64,000 nt of DNA. Origin: a bacterium (GTDB taxonomy: Bacteria > Actinomycetota > Acidimicrobiia > Acidimicrobiales > CATQHL01). Positions 54,572 to 64,000 of the stretch are shown here, in pieces (positions within the stretch are counted from its first letter, which is position 1; each line of letters opens with the position of its first letter). The notes under the pieces were generated by a model, which ran no database searches, had not been told where the DNA came from, and saw only the letters and a list, made by a program, of their open reading frames with translations. The stretch spans positions 1 through 64,000 of the forward strand of contig JAPOVS010000067.1 in assembly GCA_026708055.1 (NCBI GenBank). Direction: 5' to 3'. A program made the position numbers and the translations under genes.

Positions 54572-56590
54572 TCAGGGGCGACCGGCCCTCCCGGCGTCGA
54601 TCGCCAGCTGCCGACGCAGGGTGGCAGGGTCGTCTGCGGGCGCCGCGCAGGTGTAGCGCCGGCACACGTAGGCGGCACCGTCGCGACGCTGGGCCCACAG
54701 CGGCGAGTCGTACGGCTCGCCCCAGGCCAGCACGGCGTTCGGCAGCCAGGCCCCGTGCACGACATCCACGAGGTCTCGGCGGTCGCCGGTGATGACGACC
54801 TCGGTGGCGCCGCCGGCGTGCAGATCCAGGGCGCACAGCAGGTTGCCGAAGCCGCTGGGGTGCTCGCCGGCGAGCGGGCCCAGCAGCGCCAGGATCTCAG
54901 CGGCCCGCTCGTGGTAGGCGCCGGTACCCACGAGCGCGCCCAGGCGCATCAGGCCCAGCGCGGCGGCGCTGCTGGCCGAGGGGGTGGCGTTGTCGAAGAG
55001 ATCCCGGGGCGTGGCAACCAACGGCTCGGCGTCGCGCCCGCAGGTGAGCAGGCCGCTGCCGTCGGGATCCCAGAACAACTCCACCAGGTCGTCGGCGGTC
55101 CGTCGGGCCTCGGCGATCCAGTGCGCTCTGCCGGTGGTCTCGGCAAGGCGGCAGAAGGCGTTCAGGAGCGCGGCGTAATCGGCCGCGCAGGCCAGGTGCC
55201 GCGCCCCGGGGGGGCGGTCGGCGTCGCCCGCCTGCCAGGAACGCAGCCAGCGCCCGTCGGCACGCCGCAGGTTCTGCAGCAGGAACTCGCCGCAGTCCTC
55301 CGCGACAGCCAGCCAGGCGGTGTTCCCGGTCGCGGTGGCCGCAGCGGCCAGAGCGGCTATCAGCAGCCCGTTCCATTCGGTCAGCACCTTGTCGTCGAGG
55401 CCGGGGCGGACCCGCCCGGAGCGGGCCTCGAGCAGCGCCCGGCGCGCCTGCTCCACCTCGGGCGAGCGCAGCAGGTCGCCGCGCACCGGCCGCCACAGGA
55501 TGTTGGCCCCCTCGAAGTTGCCTTCGCCGGTGGCGCCGTACCACTCGATGGCGGCGTCGGCTGCCTCTCCGGCGGCACTGCGGATCTCTTCGAGGCGCCA
55601 CACGTAGAACTTCCCCTCCACGCCTTCGGAGTCGGCGTCCTCGGCTGAGGCGAAGCCGCCGCCGGGCAGGCGCAGATCGCGCAGCAGGTAGCCGACGGTC
55701 TCGGTGACCACCTGGCGGTAGCGGGCCTTGCCGGTGACCTGCCAGGCGGCGGTGTACAGCCCCAGCAGCAGGGCATTGTCGTAGAGCATCTTCTCGAAGT
55801 GCGGTACCAACCAGCGCTGGTCGGTGGCGTAGCGCGAGAAGCCGCCGCCGAGGTGGTCGTAGATGCCGCCGGAGGCCATGCAGTCCAGGCTGTTGACGAC
55901 CATCGCCAGCACGTCGTCGTCACCGGAGTTCCGCCAGTGCCGCAGCAACGCCTCCAGCGTCATGGCCTGGGGGAACTTGGGAGCATGGCCGAATCCTCCC
56001 CAGGCGGCGTCGTACTGGCGGCGCAGCGCTCCGGCGGCGGCGGCGAGCACCTCGTGGCCGTCGGGGACGCCGCCCGACGCCGGCGGCAGGCGAGCGGCCC
56101 GATCCAGGGCCGCCGTGATGCGCTGTGCCTGATCCCGGACATCGCCGCGGCGCTCGCCCCACGCGTCGCTGACCCGCTGGAGGACGTCGCCGAACGAGGG
56201 CATCCCGTGGCGCGCCGTGGGCGGGAAGTAGGTGCCGGCGAAGAACGGCTCCCCCTCGGGTGTCAGGAAGACGGTCATGGGCCAGCCCCCGTGGCCGGTG
56301 AGCGAGGTGACCGCCTCCATGTACAGCGAGTCCACGTCGGGCCGTTCCTCGCGGTCCACCTTCACGTTCACGAACCAGCGGTTCATCAGCTCCGCCGTGG
56401 CCGGGTCCTCGAACGATTCGTGGGCCATCACATGGCACCAGTGGCAGGAGGAGTAGCCCACCGACAGCAGCATCGGCTTGTCGGCTCGGCGGGCCTCGTC
56501 GAAGGCCTCCGTGCCCCAGGGGTACCAGTCCACGGGGTTGTCGGCGTGCTGGCGAAGGTAGGGGCTCCCCTCGGCCGCGAGTCGGTTCAT
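54572..56590 (-). CDS. Thioredoxin-domain protein, YyaL/SSP411 family
   Basis: The 672-residue protein has an N-terminal thioredoxin-like domain ([38 protein letters not shown] with the CxxC, then [16 protein letters not shown]) and a long (alpha/alpha)-barrel glycosidase-like region ([64 protein letters not shown]). The biochemical role of the family is not established. ATG 56590 gives the canonical [12 protein letters not shown] start. The frame upstream is open for 2.8 kb as far as the DUF222-HNH gene. Confidence 0.92.
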
Positions 56591-56887
56591 GCGGCGAGCA
56601 TAAAGGGAGCTGGAAGCGGCCCGCACCGAGAGACACAGCGCGACCGCGCCGCCTCGAGGTTCGGCACGGCGAATCCCAGTCCCACCGAGGCACGCCCGTG
56701 CCGAAAGGTGTGCCGCTGCCGCGCCGCAGCCCCTCCCCGCGCCCTGAGGGTCGCCGACGCGGCGGGCGGCGCCGGCCGGTCGCGGCACCGGTGCCGCGCC
56801 GGATCCGCCGCTGTAGGGACAGTGACCGGCCCGGTCGGCCGGGCCGCGGTCCGGCCTGTCAGGCAGGCTGCCGCTAGCGTGGCCGGT

Positions 56888-57787
56888 GTGACGCGGGTGC
56901 AGGACTGGGTCGCCGGGGCGAGGCCGCGAACCCTGCCGGCCTCGCTGGCACCGGTGATCGCCGGCACGGCGAGCGCGGCCAGGCCGGGCTTCGGCTGGGG
57001 CCAGGGTCTCATCTGGTGGCGTCTGGCGCTGGCCCTGGTGGTGGCGCTGGGGTTGCAGATCGGCGTCAACTACGCCAACGACTACAGCGACGGCATGCGC
57101 GGCACCGACGACGAGCGCCGGGTGGGCCCGCGGCGCCTGGTGGGTTCGGGCCTGGCGCGCCCCGGGGCCGTGCGCAACGCCGCCGCTCTTGCCGGGCTCG
57201 TGGCGGGAGGCGCCGGTCTGGCCCTCGCCGCGGCGGCCGGCTGGGAACTGGTGATCGTCGGCGCTGCGTGTCTCGCAGCCGGCTGGTTCTACTCGGGCGG
57301 ACGCCGGCCCTACGGCTACCGGGGGCTGGGCGAGGTGAGTGTGTTCATCTTCTTCGGCCTCGTGGCAGCGGTCGGAGCCGCCTTCGTGCAACTGGAGGCG
57401 ATCACGGCCCGCAGCATCTGGGTGGGAGTGGGCTGCGGTTGCCTGAGCTGCGCACTGCTGGTGGTCAACAACCTGCGCGACATCGAGGGTGACGCGGCCG
57501 CCGGGAAGCGCACCCTGGCGGTCCGCATGGGAACGTCCCGGACACGCCTTCTCCACGCCGCTCTGGTGGCGGGCGCCTTCGTCGCACTGATCCCGTTGGC
57601 GCTCAGCGAGCCCTGGGCCGTGCTGGGGCTGGCAGCCTTGCCGTTCGCTGCGGCCCCGCTGGCGCGGGTGCTGCGCGGCGCCGAAGGAGTCGACCTGATC
57701 GGCGCTCTGGCCGCCACGGGCCGCCTGCTGGCCGCCTACGGCCTCACCCTCGCCGCCGGCCTCTGGGCAGCTTCGGCCCTGGCCTGA
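56888..57787 (+). CDS. menA: 1,4-dihydroxy-2-naphthoate polyprenyltransferase MenA
   Basis: MenA attaches the isoprenoid tail to the naphthoate ring in menaquinone synthesis at the membrane. The 299-residue UbiA-family protein has about eight membrane segments, the first Asp-rich motif in [14 protein letters not shown] and the second in [22 protein letters not shown] 56888 gives the family N-terminus ([20 protein letters not shown]). It is divergent from the YyaL-type gene with 297 bases between, which hold an 18-base perfect palindrome (56781-56798) and no gene. Its 3' end abuts the antisense end of the DUF222-HNH frame. Confidence 0.95.
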
Positions 57788-57790
57788 AAG

Positions 57791-59242
57791 AACTGCTTGC
57801 GGGGGTGGTTTCTGTTCGCAGGCGACGGTGATGGTGTTGCCTGCGCGCAGCGCCGCCCGGCGTGGCGGCTGGGGTTTGAACAGCCCGGCTTGTCGGGGTC
57901 CGTCGGTGCCGTCGGTTGGCGTGTTGGGTGGTTGGAGGGTGAGGCTGCCGTCGGGGCGTCGGGTGACTTCTTCGCCGTTGAGGTGGACGCGGATGTGGTG
58001 GCAGCGGTGGCAGAGCAGGCAGGTGTTCTCCAGGGTGGTCTCGCCGCCGTGGCACCAGTGGTCGATGTGGTGGACCTCGCAGATCTTCTCGGTGACGCGG
58101 CAGCCGATGCAGCCTCGGTCGCGGGCGACGAGTTGTTTGCGCAGCCGCGGCGAGACCTTGCGTTTGGATCTTCCAAGCAGTGTCTCGCCAGTGTGCTTGT
58201 TGAAGATGCCCGACAGGATCCTGGCGTCACATGCCAACGCCAGCACCTCGGCCGTGGTGAGGGGGGTGTCGTCGGCGAGGCGGGCGTTGACGACCCGCTC
58301 GCGGACCAAGTCGTAGTCGGCCAGCACGATCAACTCTGCGCCCATCGGCGCGCCCTTGCCGCCGGTGTGGCTGTTGCAGATCAGTTCTGCGAGCGCATCC
58401 GCGGAGCGCTGCTGTGGCGTGGGACGGTTCTTGGGGTCCTCGGCGCGGAACAACTCGTCGCCGCGGGCCAACAGCGCGGCGCGCACCCGGTTTCCGGTGA
58501 GCGGGTCGAACTGCGCGAACAGATGGAACATCCCGTCGCCCTGCTCAGCGATCGACGCCCGGCGGCGCCGCCGCTGGGAGGCCCGCCGCGCCTCGAGTTC
58601 CTGCTCACTGGTGGCGTCGTTGACCATCTGCTTGATCGTGCGGCGCAGCTGATCCTCGGGCTCGACCTCGGCGGCGTCCAGCAGCGCCCGCCGGTCCAGC
58701 GGCGCGTCGGCGGCGGCGTCGAGGATCATTCCCGCCGCCTCCGGCGTGATCGCCCCCTCGGCGAGCCTGTCGGCCACCTCGGGCGACCACTCCAGCTGCC
58801 CGGCGACCTTCACGGCCTTGCGGGCGCCGGAACGCGACCGCTTCTGATCCCGACACAGCATCTCTTCGATCGCCTTCTCGCCCTCCCGGCGAGAGATCTC
58901 GGTAATCACCTCCGCCTCGCAGGCCGCGATCGCCGCCCGCGCCCGCCCCATGCGCCCCAAGCGGTCACGCAACACCGCCAAGGTCACCTCCCGCAACGAC
59001 ACCGGCGGCGCGAACAACCACTCCCCCAACGACGCCCACTCCCCACCAGCACGGCCGCCGGTGCCACCAGCGGCGTCGGCGCCGGCGATGACGGCGTCCG
59101 CTTCGGCGGAACCGCGAGCGGCGAAGCCAGAACCGGTACCCGTAGTGGCCTCTCCGCTGCCCGGCTCTCGGTGACCGCGACCGCCAGCGGCGGCGTCACG
59201 GCTGGTGACGGTGCCACCGGTGCGCCTCGAGTCCTCGCCCAT
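57791..59242 (-). CDS. DUF222-HNH endonuclease (13E12-like), without its own stop codon
   Basis: About 484 codons show a DUF222 domain ([39 protein letters not shown]) and a C-terminal HNH nuclease domain ([34 protein letters not shown]). Such genes are often multicopy and sit in mobile regions of actinobacteria. The expected stop just after the HNH domain is absent: the frame stays open through the strand opposite menA and joins the YyaL-type gene in frame, so the 3' end was probably lost. The coordinate 57791 marks where the family sequence fades, not a stop. The start is most likely ATG 59242. Confidence 0.7.
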
Positions 59243-59395
59243 CTCGCCATCACCCCTTCGTTCGTTCCCGGCCCCCGCCCCTCGGCGGCGAACGCCCCTT
59301 GTCATTGCCTTTCCACAATCTAAAACACGGGTGTGACACTCTCCCAATACATGTTTGTCTAAGCGGCGAGAAAACCCCACAGTCATCTGCGGCAC

Positions 59396-59821
59396 GACCA
59401 GAGCCGACCGGATAGCTCGCGCCGAACCCCCAGGTCAACGGACCGCGCCCTGACCCCGCATCCACCGCAGGCTGAGCGTCGGCCAGTCCCCGGCGAATCA
59501 CCCCGGCTCTGGTGGAGGGTGACCTCGGAACCGAGAGTGAGCAGTGGCACAACGAGAGTCGGCGTGCCGGGCCCACCGCGCCGCATCCGTTGCACTCATG
59601 GCGAGGTCCCGATGCTGAACTCGACCCAACGAGCCAAGACAGCCTGTGGATCGACGCCCTCCCGGGCTGATTGTTGAACGTCGCCGTTTGGCGTTCGGCG
59701 GCAATCGGCAGCGAGCGCTCTGGATCGGCATCGGAGACGGCGGCACTGATCCGCGTTCGGGTGACCGGTAGGCTTAGGTCGCAATTCGAGAGTCCATCGC
59801 CATCAGAGCCGGAGGTGGATC
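59396..59821. other. Intergenic region without a recognisable gene
   Basis: These 426 bases lie between the DUF222-HNH frame and the antitoxin remnant. The part next to the HNH gene is less GC-rich (around 59320-59370) and probably holds a promoter. I found no credible reading frame, RNA gene or repeat in the rest. Confidence 0.5.
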
Positions 59822-60072
59822 ATGCAGGCCAACGAGCGCCCCCTGCAGCGCATCACCGCCCGGCCCGATGTGTTCGGGGGCAAGCCGATCGTCCGCGACC
59901 TGCGCATCTCGTGGAGATGGTGCTGAGCCTGCTCGCCCAGGGAGTAGCTACTGACGACATCCTGGACGACTACCCGGACGTCGAGGCGGAGGACGTTCTG
60001 GCCTGCACCGCCTACGCGCACGCGGTCATCGCCCGCGACACGCTGGCCTCGGTCTCCGTCCCAGGGCGGTGA
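59822..60072 (+). pseudogene. Frameshifted DUF433 antitoxin-type gene
   Basis: ATG 59822 begins ERPLQRITARPDVFGGKPIV and RDLRIS, the expected N-terminus of a DUF433 protein, and then runs into TGA at 59924. From 59911 the other frame continues in register with the family: VEMVLSLLAQGVATDDILDD and YPDVEAEDVLACTAYAHAV, ending at TGA 60072. One base is missing near 59908-59911. DUF433 proteins are antitoxins that usually sit upstream of DUF5615 PIN-like toxins, as in this case. A sequencing error is possible but the adjacent toxin is also broken. Confidence 0.75.
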
Positions 60073-60368
60073 GGTTTCTGGTTGATCGCTGCGCCGGGCG
60101 ACGCCACGCTCGCCTGCCTGAGGACGCAGGTGCCCGATCTGCAGAACCACCTGCAGCATCTACGCGCCGCGCGCCCGGACCTGCCCGTCGAACGGTCAAC
60201 ACACAGAACGCCGCTCGGCCCCATCGCATCACCCATCACATCAGAGGGCTCCGACACGGGCTCGTCGTCCCCATCGGAGCCGGGCCTCAGCCCGTAACAC
60301 GGCGAGCTCCGGCGAGGCTGTCACAGGTGGCCATTAGCTTGAAGCGCCAGAGTCGGGCAAGCTGCTGA
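60069..60368 (+). pseudogene. Remnant of a DUF5615-type toxin gene
   Basis: GTG 60069 overlaps the antitoxin stop and begins MRFLVDRCAG, the typical start of DUF5615 PIN-like toxins (MRFLVDexxP...), but the resemblance fades after about 24 residues into low-complexity Arg/Ala/Pro sequence. The frame ends at 60368. The rest of the toxin domain, including its later acidic residues, is not present. The call depends on the short N-terminal match and the antitoxin context. Confidence 0.4.
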
Positions 60369-60393
60369 TCACCCGTGTTCGAAGGAGAACCCC

Positions 60394-62688
60394 ATGGCCA
60401 GGACGATGTACCGCACAACGTTCTACGGATTGATGAACCTCGTCGAGGACATCGATCGCGGCAGGATCGCGCTGCCCGACATCCAGCGCCCCTTCGTGTG
60501 GAAGCCTGTGCAGGTCCGCGACCTGTTCGACTCCATGTACCGGGGCTTCCCCGTTGGGACGCTGATGTTCTGGGAGACCGGCGCTGAGGCGGGTATCCGG
60601 CAGATCGGCGGCGGTGACGGCGACGGCGTGCCCAGGCTCCTGATCGTCGACGGCCAGCAGCGGCTCACCTCCCTGTACTCGGTGCTGCAAGGCAAACCTG
60701 TATTGGACGCCCGCTTCAAGCAGAAGCGCATCAAAATCGCCTTCCGGCCCGAGGATGAATCCTTCGAGGTCAGCGACGCGGCGATTCGACGTGATCCGGA
60801 ATACATCGCCGATGTCACGGCGCTGTGGGGCGACCGTTACCGCTCTGTCGTCAGGGAGTTCCTGGCGCGCCTCGCGGCACACCGGCAGGCCGGCTCGGAG
60901 CTGCCCGAGCCGAACTGGGACGCGCTGCATGACCGGCTCGAGGACCGCATCGACAGGGTCCGCGACCTCCGCGACTTCCAGTTCCAGGCTCTCGAACTGA
61001 CGGGCAACGCCGACGAGGAACAGGTCGCGGACATTTTCGTCCGCGCCAACTCCAAGGGCGTGCAACTCAAGCAGGCCGACTTCATCCTGACGCTCATGTC
61101 CGTGCATTGGGAGAAGGGCAGGGTCCAGATCGAGCAATTCTGCCGAGACGCCGTCGCGCCTGCTGGCAGCGGCGCCTCGCCCAGGAACCCCTTCATCGAC
61201 CCGAAGCCCGATCAGATGCTGCGGGTCGCGGTCGGCTTGGCGTTTCGGCGCGCCCGCCTCGAATACGTCTACAGCATCCTGCGCGGCAAGGACCTCGAGA
61301 CTGGCGACATCTCCGCTCTGCGGCGCACTGGGCAGTTCGAGCGGCTGCAGAGAGCCGTGGACCAAGCGCTCGACCTCGGCAACTGGCACGAGTTCCTGAA
61401 GTGCCTGACCCACGCGGGGTTCCGCAGCGGTCGAATGATTACCAGCGAGAGTGCCGTGCTCTTCAGCTACCTGCTGTGGTTGATCGGCAGGTGCGACTTC
61501 GGCCTCGACCGCAGGAGGCTGCGCGGTGTAATCGGCCGCTGGTTCTTCATGGCACAGACGGCGGGCCGTTACACCGGATCGCCCGAGACCTTGCTGGAAG
61601 GTGACCTCAGGCGACTCGAAGCCGCGTCCAAGGACGGCGAGACGTTCTGCGGCGAGTTGGACCGCATAATTCGTGCCACCTTCACCCGCGACTACTGGGA
61701 GGTCTCCCTGCCGGAGCGGCTCGACACGTCGTCGTCCCGATCGCCGGTGCTCTCGGCGTACCTTGCGGCGCTGAACCTTCTGGACGCCGAGGCCCTGCTG
61801 AGCAACCTGCGGATCCGCGACCTGAGCGATCCGCTGCGCGCCGCGCCGCGCTCGCTGGAGCGCCACCACCTGTTCCCCAAGGCCCATCTGGCAGCGAAGG
61901 GCATCACGCGGCTCCAAGAGACGAACGCCATCGCCAACATGGCCTTCCTGGACTGGCCGGACAACGCCGCCGTCGGTCCGGAGGATCCGCGTGCCTACTG
62001 GCCCGCAATGAGCGCGGCGATGGATCCTGCACGGCTCGAGCGGCAGATGTACTGGCACGCCTTGCCTGTGGGATGGGAGCAACTGGACTACCCGACCTTC
62101 CTGGCGAGGCGCCGCAGACTCCTGGCGATGGTGGTGAGAGACGGTGTCGAGCAACTCTGGGACGCGGGATCCTCCGCTCCGCCTGCAGGAGGGGTCGACG
62201 AACTGCTGAAACTCGGAGAGTCGCAGACGCTGGAGTTCAAGTCCTCGGCGCGCTGGAACAGCCACACAGGGGGCGTCGACAAGCGCCTCGAGCACGTCGT
62301 TGTCAAGACCGTCTGCGGGTTTCTCAACGCGGCGGGCGGCAAGCTGCTCATCGGCGTGAAGGACGATGCCGAAGTGTTGGGAGTCGATGCCGACATGGAG
62401 ACCCTGGGGCGCAAGGCTGACAAGGACGGCTACGAGCTCTTCCTGCGCCAGCTGCTCGAGAACTCACTGTCGGTTCCCACTGCCGGGATTGTGCACATCG
62501 GTTTCGATCACATCGGAGGCGTCGAAATCTGCGTCGTCACCGTCGCCTCGTCCGGGAAGCCCGTGTTCGCCAAACCGCTCGAGGGCGGTGCTGGCCACAT
62601 TGAGTTCTGGCTCCGGGTGGGCAACGCCACGAGGCAGCTTCACGGTGACGACATGCTCGACTACAAGAACAGCCATTGGGGCGACTGA
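60394..62688 (+). CDS. DUF262-HNH-AlbA_2 fusion protein, probable defence nuclease
   Basis: The 764-residue protein is a three-part fusion. Residues 1-200 carry a DUF262 (GmrS-type, ParB-like) domain with ALPDIQRPFVWKPVQVRDLF and the DGQQR motif in LLIVDGQQRLTSLYSVLQG. Residues about 480-540 carry an HNH-like nuclease region (LERHHLFPKAHLAAKG, then NAIANMAFL). Residues about 600-764 carry an AlbA_2/Schlafen-type domain (LGESQTLEFKSSARW, LNAAGGKLLIGVKDD). DUF262-HNH proteins are modification-dependent restriction enzymes and DUF262 uses nucleotide hydrolysis. GGAG at 60384 precedes ATG 60394. The target is unknown; the reading frame appears intact in a region of broken genes. Confidence 0.85.
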   Translation: MARTMYRTTFYGLMNLVEDIDRGRIALPDIQRPFVWKPVQVRDLFDSMYRGFPVGTLMFWETGAEAGIRQIGGGDGDGVPRLLIVDGQQRLTSLYSVLQGKPVLDARFKQKRIKIAFRPEDESFEVSDAAIRRDPEYIADVTALWGDRYRSVVREFLARLAAHRQAGSELPEPNWDALHDRLEDRIDRVRDLRDFQFQALELTGNADEEQVADIFVRANSKGVQLKQADFILTLMSVHWEKGRVQIEQFCRDAVAPAGSGASPRNPFIDPKPDQMLRVAVGLAFRRARLEYVYSILRGKDLETGDISALRRTGQFERLQRAVDQALDLGNWHEFLKCLTHAGFRSGRMITSESAVLFSYLLWLIGRCDFGLDRRRLRGVIGRWFFMAQTAGRYTGSPETLLEGDLRRLEAASKDGETFCGELDRIIRATFTRDYWEVSLPERLDTSSSRSPVLSAYLAALNLLDAEALLSNLRIRDLSDPLRAAPRSLERHHLFPKAHLAAKGITRLQETNAIANMAFLDWPDNAAVGPEDPRAYWPAMSAAMDPARLERQMYWHALPVGWEQLDYPTFLARRRRLLAMVVRDGVEQLWDAGSSAPPAGGVDELLKLGESQTLEFKSSARWNSHTGGVDKRLEHVVVKTVCGFLNAAGGKLLIGVKDDAEVLGVDADMETLGRKADKDGYELFLRQLLENSLSVPTAGIVHIGFDHIGGVEICVVTVASSGKPVFAKPLEGGAGHIEFWLRVGNATRQLHGDDMLDYKNSHWGD

Positions 62689-63731: not shown

Positions 63732-64000
63732 CGCTTCGAACGCTGTTGGTCCAGTTGGTGCGGATGCGGAACCGCACCATGTCCGAGACGATCAACAGCG
63801 GCGGGTTCTCCAGCGCCAGCGCGTCCTGCCGGAGCTGATCGAACGCCGCGTCGAGGTCCTTCCCCTTCGCCTTGTACTCCCAGGCGCAGCAGTGGCGCTT
63901 CCAGACATCGGCTCAGCCGTCGCCGCCGGTGTCCTTGTGCGCCCCCGCTCAAAGCAGTACGACCCGCCGATCGGGTCGACGTCCGCGGGCTTGGGCTCGC
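63732..64000 (-). pseudogene. N-terminal part of the same methyltransferase, with frameshift and nonsense codon
   Basis: Reading leftward from 64000, a DVDPIGGSYCFERG stretch is followed in another frame by AHKDTGGDG, a TGA at 63913-63915 where relatives have Trp, then ADVWKRHCCAWEYKAKGKDL and ENPPLLIVSDMVRFRIRTNW. One base is missing from a run of five C (63942-63946) to join the first two pieces. The N-terminal domain then meets the C-terminal block out of frame near 63750. The gene continues beyond the window. A sequencing error could explain the homopolymer slip but not the nonsense codon plus the deletions. Confidence 0.65.

Follow-up and report, generated by a model that had tools for sequence, protein, structure and literature searches.

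Restriction enzymes of the GmrSD type were surveyed in 2015, and DUF4268, DUF4357 and DNA_binding_1 were listed as their extra domains, AlbA_2 being absent from that list; the GmrD motif definition used here was taken from the same report (PMC4619093). Residues important for AlbA_2 nucleases have been described in animal proteins. The substitutions E205A and E210A abolished the activity of rSLFN13 (PMC5862951), and a lysine of the K212 type marks cleavage-proficient Schlafens, being gone from the inactive SLFN5 and mSlfn2 (PMC8789055). SAMD9 has an E-x-K motif with equal spacing (E196, K198), both residues of which are listed as essential (PMC12331169), and a fragment of the human protein (156-385), consisting of a single AlbA_2 module, cleaves tRNA by itself.

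A gene joining both kinds of module was found in a 64,000-nucleotide stretch of an acidimicrobial contig (hereafter the window). The gene, its product (P0001) and their parts are as follows:

60382..60387 (+): putative ribosome-binding site AAGGAG, 6 nt 5' of the ATG
60394..62688 (+): P0001 gene, DUF262 (GmrSD_N), helical linker, HNH and AlbA_2 (Schlafen), 764 aa, intact; from the ORF, domain scans, AlphaFold model and orthologs
60436..61089 (+): DUF262/GmrS domain, aa 15-232; Pfam GmrSD_N (PF03235), E 5e-32, above gathering cut-off
61858..61965 (+): HNH active-site segment, aa 489-524, ERHHLFP ... NAIANMAFLDWPDN (H491, H492, N515, N524); from alignment, the motif table of PMC4619093 and the BrxU fold match
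62179..62685 (+): C-terminal AlbA_2 module, aa 596-764; Pfam SLFN_AlbA_2, E 1.4e-14, above gathering cut-off; domain model pLDDT 94.6
62218-62640 (+): SLFN_AlbA_2 Pfam core, aa 609-749
62218..62241 (+): E609, E614 and K616, aligned with rSLFN13 E205, E210 and K212 in a profile alignment to SLFN11/13/14
62362..62364 (+): D657, third carboxylate, aligned with rSLFN13 D248 in the profile alignment

The open reading frame has exactly these boundaries (60394-62688) and starts with ATG. Its GC content by codon position (0.854 at third and 0.443 at second positions, in a window of 71% GC) fits a real gene, and the antisense ORF that overlaps it displays the mirror image of this pattern. Orthologs are full-length and share 44-67% identity across the entire protein, which rules out a chance fusion or an assembly artefact. 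The initial annotation had proposed an intact DUF262-HNH-AlbA_2 gene, and this was confirmed: DUF262 and AlbA_2 were recovered by Pfam above the gathering cut-off, and a GmrD-type signature together with the BrxU fold points to HNH. Judged from its sequence and predicted structure, the protein is a DUF262-HNH core with a C-terminal AlbA_2 module on a single chain.

The DUF262 motifs QR (31-32), DGQQR (86-90) and FxxxN (215-219) were preserved across the scored relatives with the exception of one truncated row. The GmrD signature consists of RHHLFP (490-495) and of L(G/A)NLxLLxxxN, present as IANMAFLDWPDN (513-524). When compared with the (E/D)-H-N-N arrangement of GmrD, H492, N515 and N524 are there and H491 stands where E or D is expected. 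Pfam HNH/DUF1524 models, including PF07510, gave no match in the protein, nor did an NCBIfam search. The N-terminus matched BrxU with phmmer, and an AlphaFold model computed from 73 sequences had a mean pLDDT of 91.6 with a low-confidence joint between core and tail at 594-598. Residues 7-586 matched BrxU with Foldseek (E 3e-11), and VIA-align gave Z 12.4-12.8 over 6-590 with a large rmsd (18-20 Å) that, in the model, points to a domain orientation different from that of BrxU.

The C-terminal part, from about residue 595 to 764, folds like DIP2311, the SAMD9 tRNase domain and the Schlafens (Foldseek and VIA-align, Z from 14 down to 9), and the same fold matches were obtained when the tail was modelled alone (pLDDT 94.6; Z 13.3 for 7ksp and 12.4 for 9o0d). 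Marginal phmmer matches of the C-terminus to SLFN12 and Schlafen 8/13 were also observed (E 0.04-0.06). A profile built from 64 AlbA_2 modules was used for residue alignment with the Schlafens. E609, E614, K616, D667, D678 and R741 were invariant in 70/70 AlbA_2 modules of all partner types (GmrSD, BrxL, HsdR and short proteins), and the position of D657 was D in 65 and E in two of these 70. The SLFN14 chain of structure 9jr9, an E211A mutant, has alanine at the position equivalent to E614. These E/E/K/D motifs typify AlbA_2 generally, and no substrate follows from them.

Of the features that mark Schlafen nucleases, the AlbA_2 domain and fold and the carboxylate triad with its lysine were all found in P0001. 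Human Schlafen cores consist of two AlbA_2-like lobes. The two-lobed horseshoe is absent from P0001: its AlbA_2 part is a single module spanning some 165 aa, and the protein is for this reason not classed as an SLFN protein proper. It may nevertheless function like one, by analogy with the single-module SAMD9, and with one lobe it may require a dimer for activity.

Our preferred reading, to which we give a probability of about one half, is that P0001 combines two nucleases in a single-chain restriction factor of the GmrSD type: HNH would cut DNA and AlbA_2 probably RNA, both under the control of DUF262 as sensor and NTPase. DUF262 would bind and hydrolyse NTP and respond to foreign, probably modified, DNA; this response would license DNA cleavage by HNH and also cleavage of RNA, most likely tRNA, by AlbA_2, and translation arrest would thereby reinforce the destruction of DNA. 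We infer the modified-DNA trigger, NTP coupling, RNA or tRNA substrate and phage defence by analogy: the NTP switch and the trigger are borrowed from BrxU, SspE and GmrSD, BrxU and GmrSD being distant from P0001 (16-17% identity to BrxU in structural alignment), and RNA cleavage is borrowed from SLFN and SAMD9. The restriction-factor reading is supported by the BrxU-like fold of the core and by the genes adjoining its relatives, which encode HsdR (L078), MmeI-like enzymes (L081, L156), BrxL (L093) and a helicase with an Eco57I-type methylase (L090). The three-part architecture and this defence context agree with the earlier suggestion of a defence enzyme carrying a module beyond its restriction core. 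That suggestion had left the added module as either a sensor or a second effector. The effector role is favoured here over the sensor because the full Schlafen catalytic signature is present and because HNH decay occurs only in AlbA_2-bearing lineages; the occurrence of HEPN, counted among the RNases in PMC12839542, in the same C-terminal slot of one relative (L170) also counts for it.

The catalytic histidine of HNH was lost in 10 of the 42 AlbA_2-bearing relatives and in none of the 111 relatives without AlbA_2, a contrast inflated by relatedness, drawn from a sample selected by similarity to P0001 and reducible to three independent events, too few for a phylogenetic test. One truncated row was unscored at N524 in this tally, and L055, which has H492, was not counted as HNH-dead. 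In these ten proteins, RHHLFP was replaced by RDRLFH, RDLLFP, RSNLFP, RYQLFR and similar sequences, and N524 was lost as well. All ten retain DGQQR together with E, E and K of AlbA_2, and at the D657 position nine have D and L195 has E. The ten correspond to three losses on supported branches: a Streptomyces/Verrucosispora group (including L195), L019 and L197. The HNH-dead copies from Streptomyces are intact genes with about 80% identity from end to end, and so are not in decay. In P0001 itself, the HNH and AlbA_2 sites are both intact.

These alignments are suggestive, not conclusive, of AlbA_2 being able to replace HNH as effector in the HNH-dead relatives, where the same sensor would drive AlbA_2 alone and constitute an abortive-infection switch. 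More tentatively, and with somewhat less than even confidence, a Type IV scaffold may have been turned into an RNA-cutting abortive-infection device: DUF262 would also license a Schlafen-type RNase, and HNH would have been discarded in Streptomyces and other lineages, in which foreign DNA would be sensed and host or phage RNA destroyed. If true, Type IV restriction could couple the detection of modified phage DNA to RNA cleavage, restriction and abortive infection being combined in one chain. A relative of the animal antiviral tRNases (SLFN, SAMD9) would then be a plug-in effector common to GmrSD, HsdR and BREX BrxL. The HNH-dead proteins are natural variants in which any protection cannot stem from HNH.

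Examination of related cores revealed that the C-terminal slot is exchangeable. The DUF262-HNH core was found tailless (about 590 aa) or followed by AlbA_2, by an extension of about 110 aa that is RAMA where recognised by Pfam (L027, L094, L098 and L122; below threshold in L143) or by HEPN. The HEPN tail was HEPN_Cthe2314 on a virus-labelled contig (L170:4965-7439), and another GmrSD core (L134:7023-10253) had a sub-threshold HEPN_Swt1 at its C-terminus and Mrr_N at its N-terminus; the HEPN superfamily is handled as RNases in PMC12839542. AlbA_2 presence required 8 changes on the core tree, at least 4 of them on supported branches, indicating repeated gain or loss of the tail. Modules sharing about 29-42% identity with that of P0001 close HsdR (type I) and BrxL proteins, and in BrxL they occupy the place of the Lon-like domain of a canonical BrxL (L093). 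This replacement was seen in L046, L047, L048 and L051 (also L049 and L050), and C-terminal AlbA_2 of the same subfamily was seen in the HsdR-like type I restriction proteins L052, L053, L056 and L060 (also L057-L059, L061 and L063). As far as the accessible part of the 2026 BREX survey goes, an HKD DNase, which takes the place of the BrxL Lon-like domain in 1030 loci, is the sole replacement reported (PMC12839542).

With corrected labels, the AlbA_2 module tree required a minimum of 3 changes for GmrSD and of 2 for HsdR, so that fusion or exchange has probably happened more than once, in whichever direction. An apparent swap of AlbA_2 between BrxL (L045) and GmrSD (L055) was rejected, L045 being a truncated GmrSD. 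Short AlbA_2 proteins (L031-L043, about 260-325 aa, mostly one family) have an unrecognised N-terminal part of about 100-160 aa, and a 713-aa protein (L054:4055-6196) has 520 unrecognised N-terminal residues followed by AlbA_2.

RAMA, the commonest other tail, is presumed to be a binder of modified DNA and not an effector. Since a sister group carries this presumed modified-base reader in that position, AlbA_2 could likewise be a nucleic-acid reader that brings the GmrSD core to particular DNA, be it modified, branched or RNA-bearing, and leaves HNH as sole effector. The crystal structure 7ksp shows the SAMD9 module with dsDNA, AlbA_2 has historically been annotated as DNA-binding, and close relatives of the module terminate DNA-acting machines (HsdR, BrxL). 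However, a reader would have no effector to serve in the ten HNH-dead relatives, and it needs no invariant metal-type signature of E, E and K, a signature which inactive SLFN5 let drift; we consider a reader role less likely than that of an effector.

Many bacterial proteins regarded as regulators contain AlbA_2, and the genome of the window alone holds 12 AlbA_2 loci. Both observations would suit a structural or regulatory module devoted to dimerisation or ligand binding and devoid of catalysis, a role made quite improbable by the invariance of the catalytic signature, K616 included, and by the loss of HNH while AlbA_2 was kept. Least probable is a DNase providing a second DNA-cutting site to complement HNH, as the characterised cleavage-proficient relatives (SLFN11/12/13, SAMD9) cut RNA and SLFN5, the one assayed on DNA in PMC8789055, did not cut it, even though the AlbA_2 partners HsdR and BrxL work on DNA and the other BrxL Lon-domain replacement documented in the accessible text of PMC12839542 is the HKD DNase.

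Two remnants lie downstream of the P0001 gene:

62880..63731 (-): C-terminal remnant (283 aa) of an MmeI-like/class I DNA methyltransferase; sub-threshold MmeI Pfam matches; annotated DNA methyltransferases are at most 66% identical to it
63792..64000 (-): probable N-terminal piece of that methyltransferase, extending to 64097 on the contig (ORF L044:7792-8097), assigned by resemblance

The two pieces are 60 bp apart, and most of the middle of the protein is missing when compared with an intact relative of about 930 aa. Their identity is based on sub-threshold Pfam matches and annotated plasmid relatives, and tblastn with two intact MmeI-like proteins gave no significant match to the remnant in the window. 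No close match to the fragment was found in the other loci of P0001 relatives, and the neighbours of these vary. The methyltransferase was consequently rejected as the fixed partner of a two-gene system and is regarded as general defence context. Given this absence of a fixed neighbour, the P0001 gene seems, like that of BrxU, to be an independent defence gene that settles in defence islands.

The initial annotation had described the gene as the only intact one among broken neighbours and had taken this to imply selection or recent arrival. The downstream remnant and upstream frames that look broken agree with the description, but long intact genes are present within a few kb on both sides; selection is supported by the orthologs and not by the broken neighbours. 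Upstream, 59803-60160 (+) is probably a frameshifted small DUF433/DUF5615-type toxin-antitoxin-like pair, recognised by eye. A single 1607-aa ORF at 54572-59395 (-) seems to combine a DUF222-like HNH protein with out-of-frame sequence and a DUF255-like thioredoxin-domain protein; the probable cause is a frameshift, or readthrough, in DNA of high GC content.

Analysis of the distribution of the architecture showed that it is sparse yet widespread over many phyla; a singular fusion is not supported. The full-length form was present in 12 of the 395 genomes of the class to which the window belongs, its own included, with 44-66% identity. A scan of named genomes found it in Streptomyces, Verrucosispora, Microbacterium, Acidobacteria, Planctomycetes, Chloroflexi, Rhizobiales, Rhodospirillaceae, Anaeromyxobacter, Lentisphaerae, Rhodothermales and others, at low frequencies (about 3/344 in Streptomyces, 4/279 in the Verrucosispora order, 2/269 in the Rhizobium order), and a scan of viral contigs found it in two that are virus-labelled (L156 and L176). 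Uniqueness of the architecture was accordingly rejected. DUF262 proteins with matching C-terminal parts, annotated only as 'DUF262 domain-containing protein', occur on a Haloquadratum plasmid and on Sinorhizobium pSymA. In the genome of the window, 5 DUF262 loci (one a fragment) were counted beside those of AlbA_2, and an AlbA_2 protein of HsdR size was located at C34:30995. A full-text literature search, the reach of which did not extend to a 2025 preprint on bacterial Schlafens, retrieved no paper linking AlbA_2 with DUF262; as the contents of that preprint lie outside the comparison, no priority is claimed for the fusion.

Among described systems, the core is closest in organisation to BrxU and Eco94GmrSD (Type IV, PDB 7p9k and 7p9m), which share DUF262 with QR, DGQQR and FxxxN, and HNH with H-N-N. 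Over the whole core, the structural alignment with BrxU reached Z 12.8 over 478 residues at 16-17% identity. BrxU (580-587 aa) stops after the HNH part and is devoid of AlbA_2, whereas P0001 adds this module, and the residue preceding the catalytic histidine is H491 in P0001 and D or E in the GmrSD family. The top PADLOC match, HEC-05 (E 1e-33, over the core), represents a candidate family only, with profiles of 566-621 positions that are too short for core and AlbA_2 together.

As regards the tail, the SAMD9/SAMD9L tRNase domain (7ksp, 9o0d) is, like that of P0001, a single AlbA_2 fold (Z 12-13) with E-x-K and acidic residues, which are essential for tRNA cleavage by SAMD9. Unlike P0001, these animal antiviral proteins have an NLR-like arrangement without DUF262 or HNH. 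The RNases SLFN11, 12, 13 and 14 share the E/E/D triad and the lysine (fold Z 9-10) but are two-lobed and have other partners. Prokaryotic Schlafen domains are defence RNases according to the accessible text of PMC12839542, which cites Taboada et al. (bioRxiv 2025); the prokaryotic fusion described there joins Schlafen to a minimal histidine kinase and a wHTH, the partner in P0001 being DUF262-HNH. A last parallel is provided by BrxL, in which the C-terminal slot of a phage-defence ATPase is likewise refilled, by an HKD DNase or, as observed here, by AlbA_2, on a core that is AAA+ in BrxL and DUF262-HNH in P0001.
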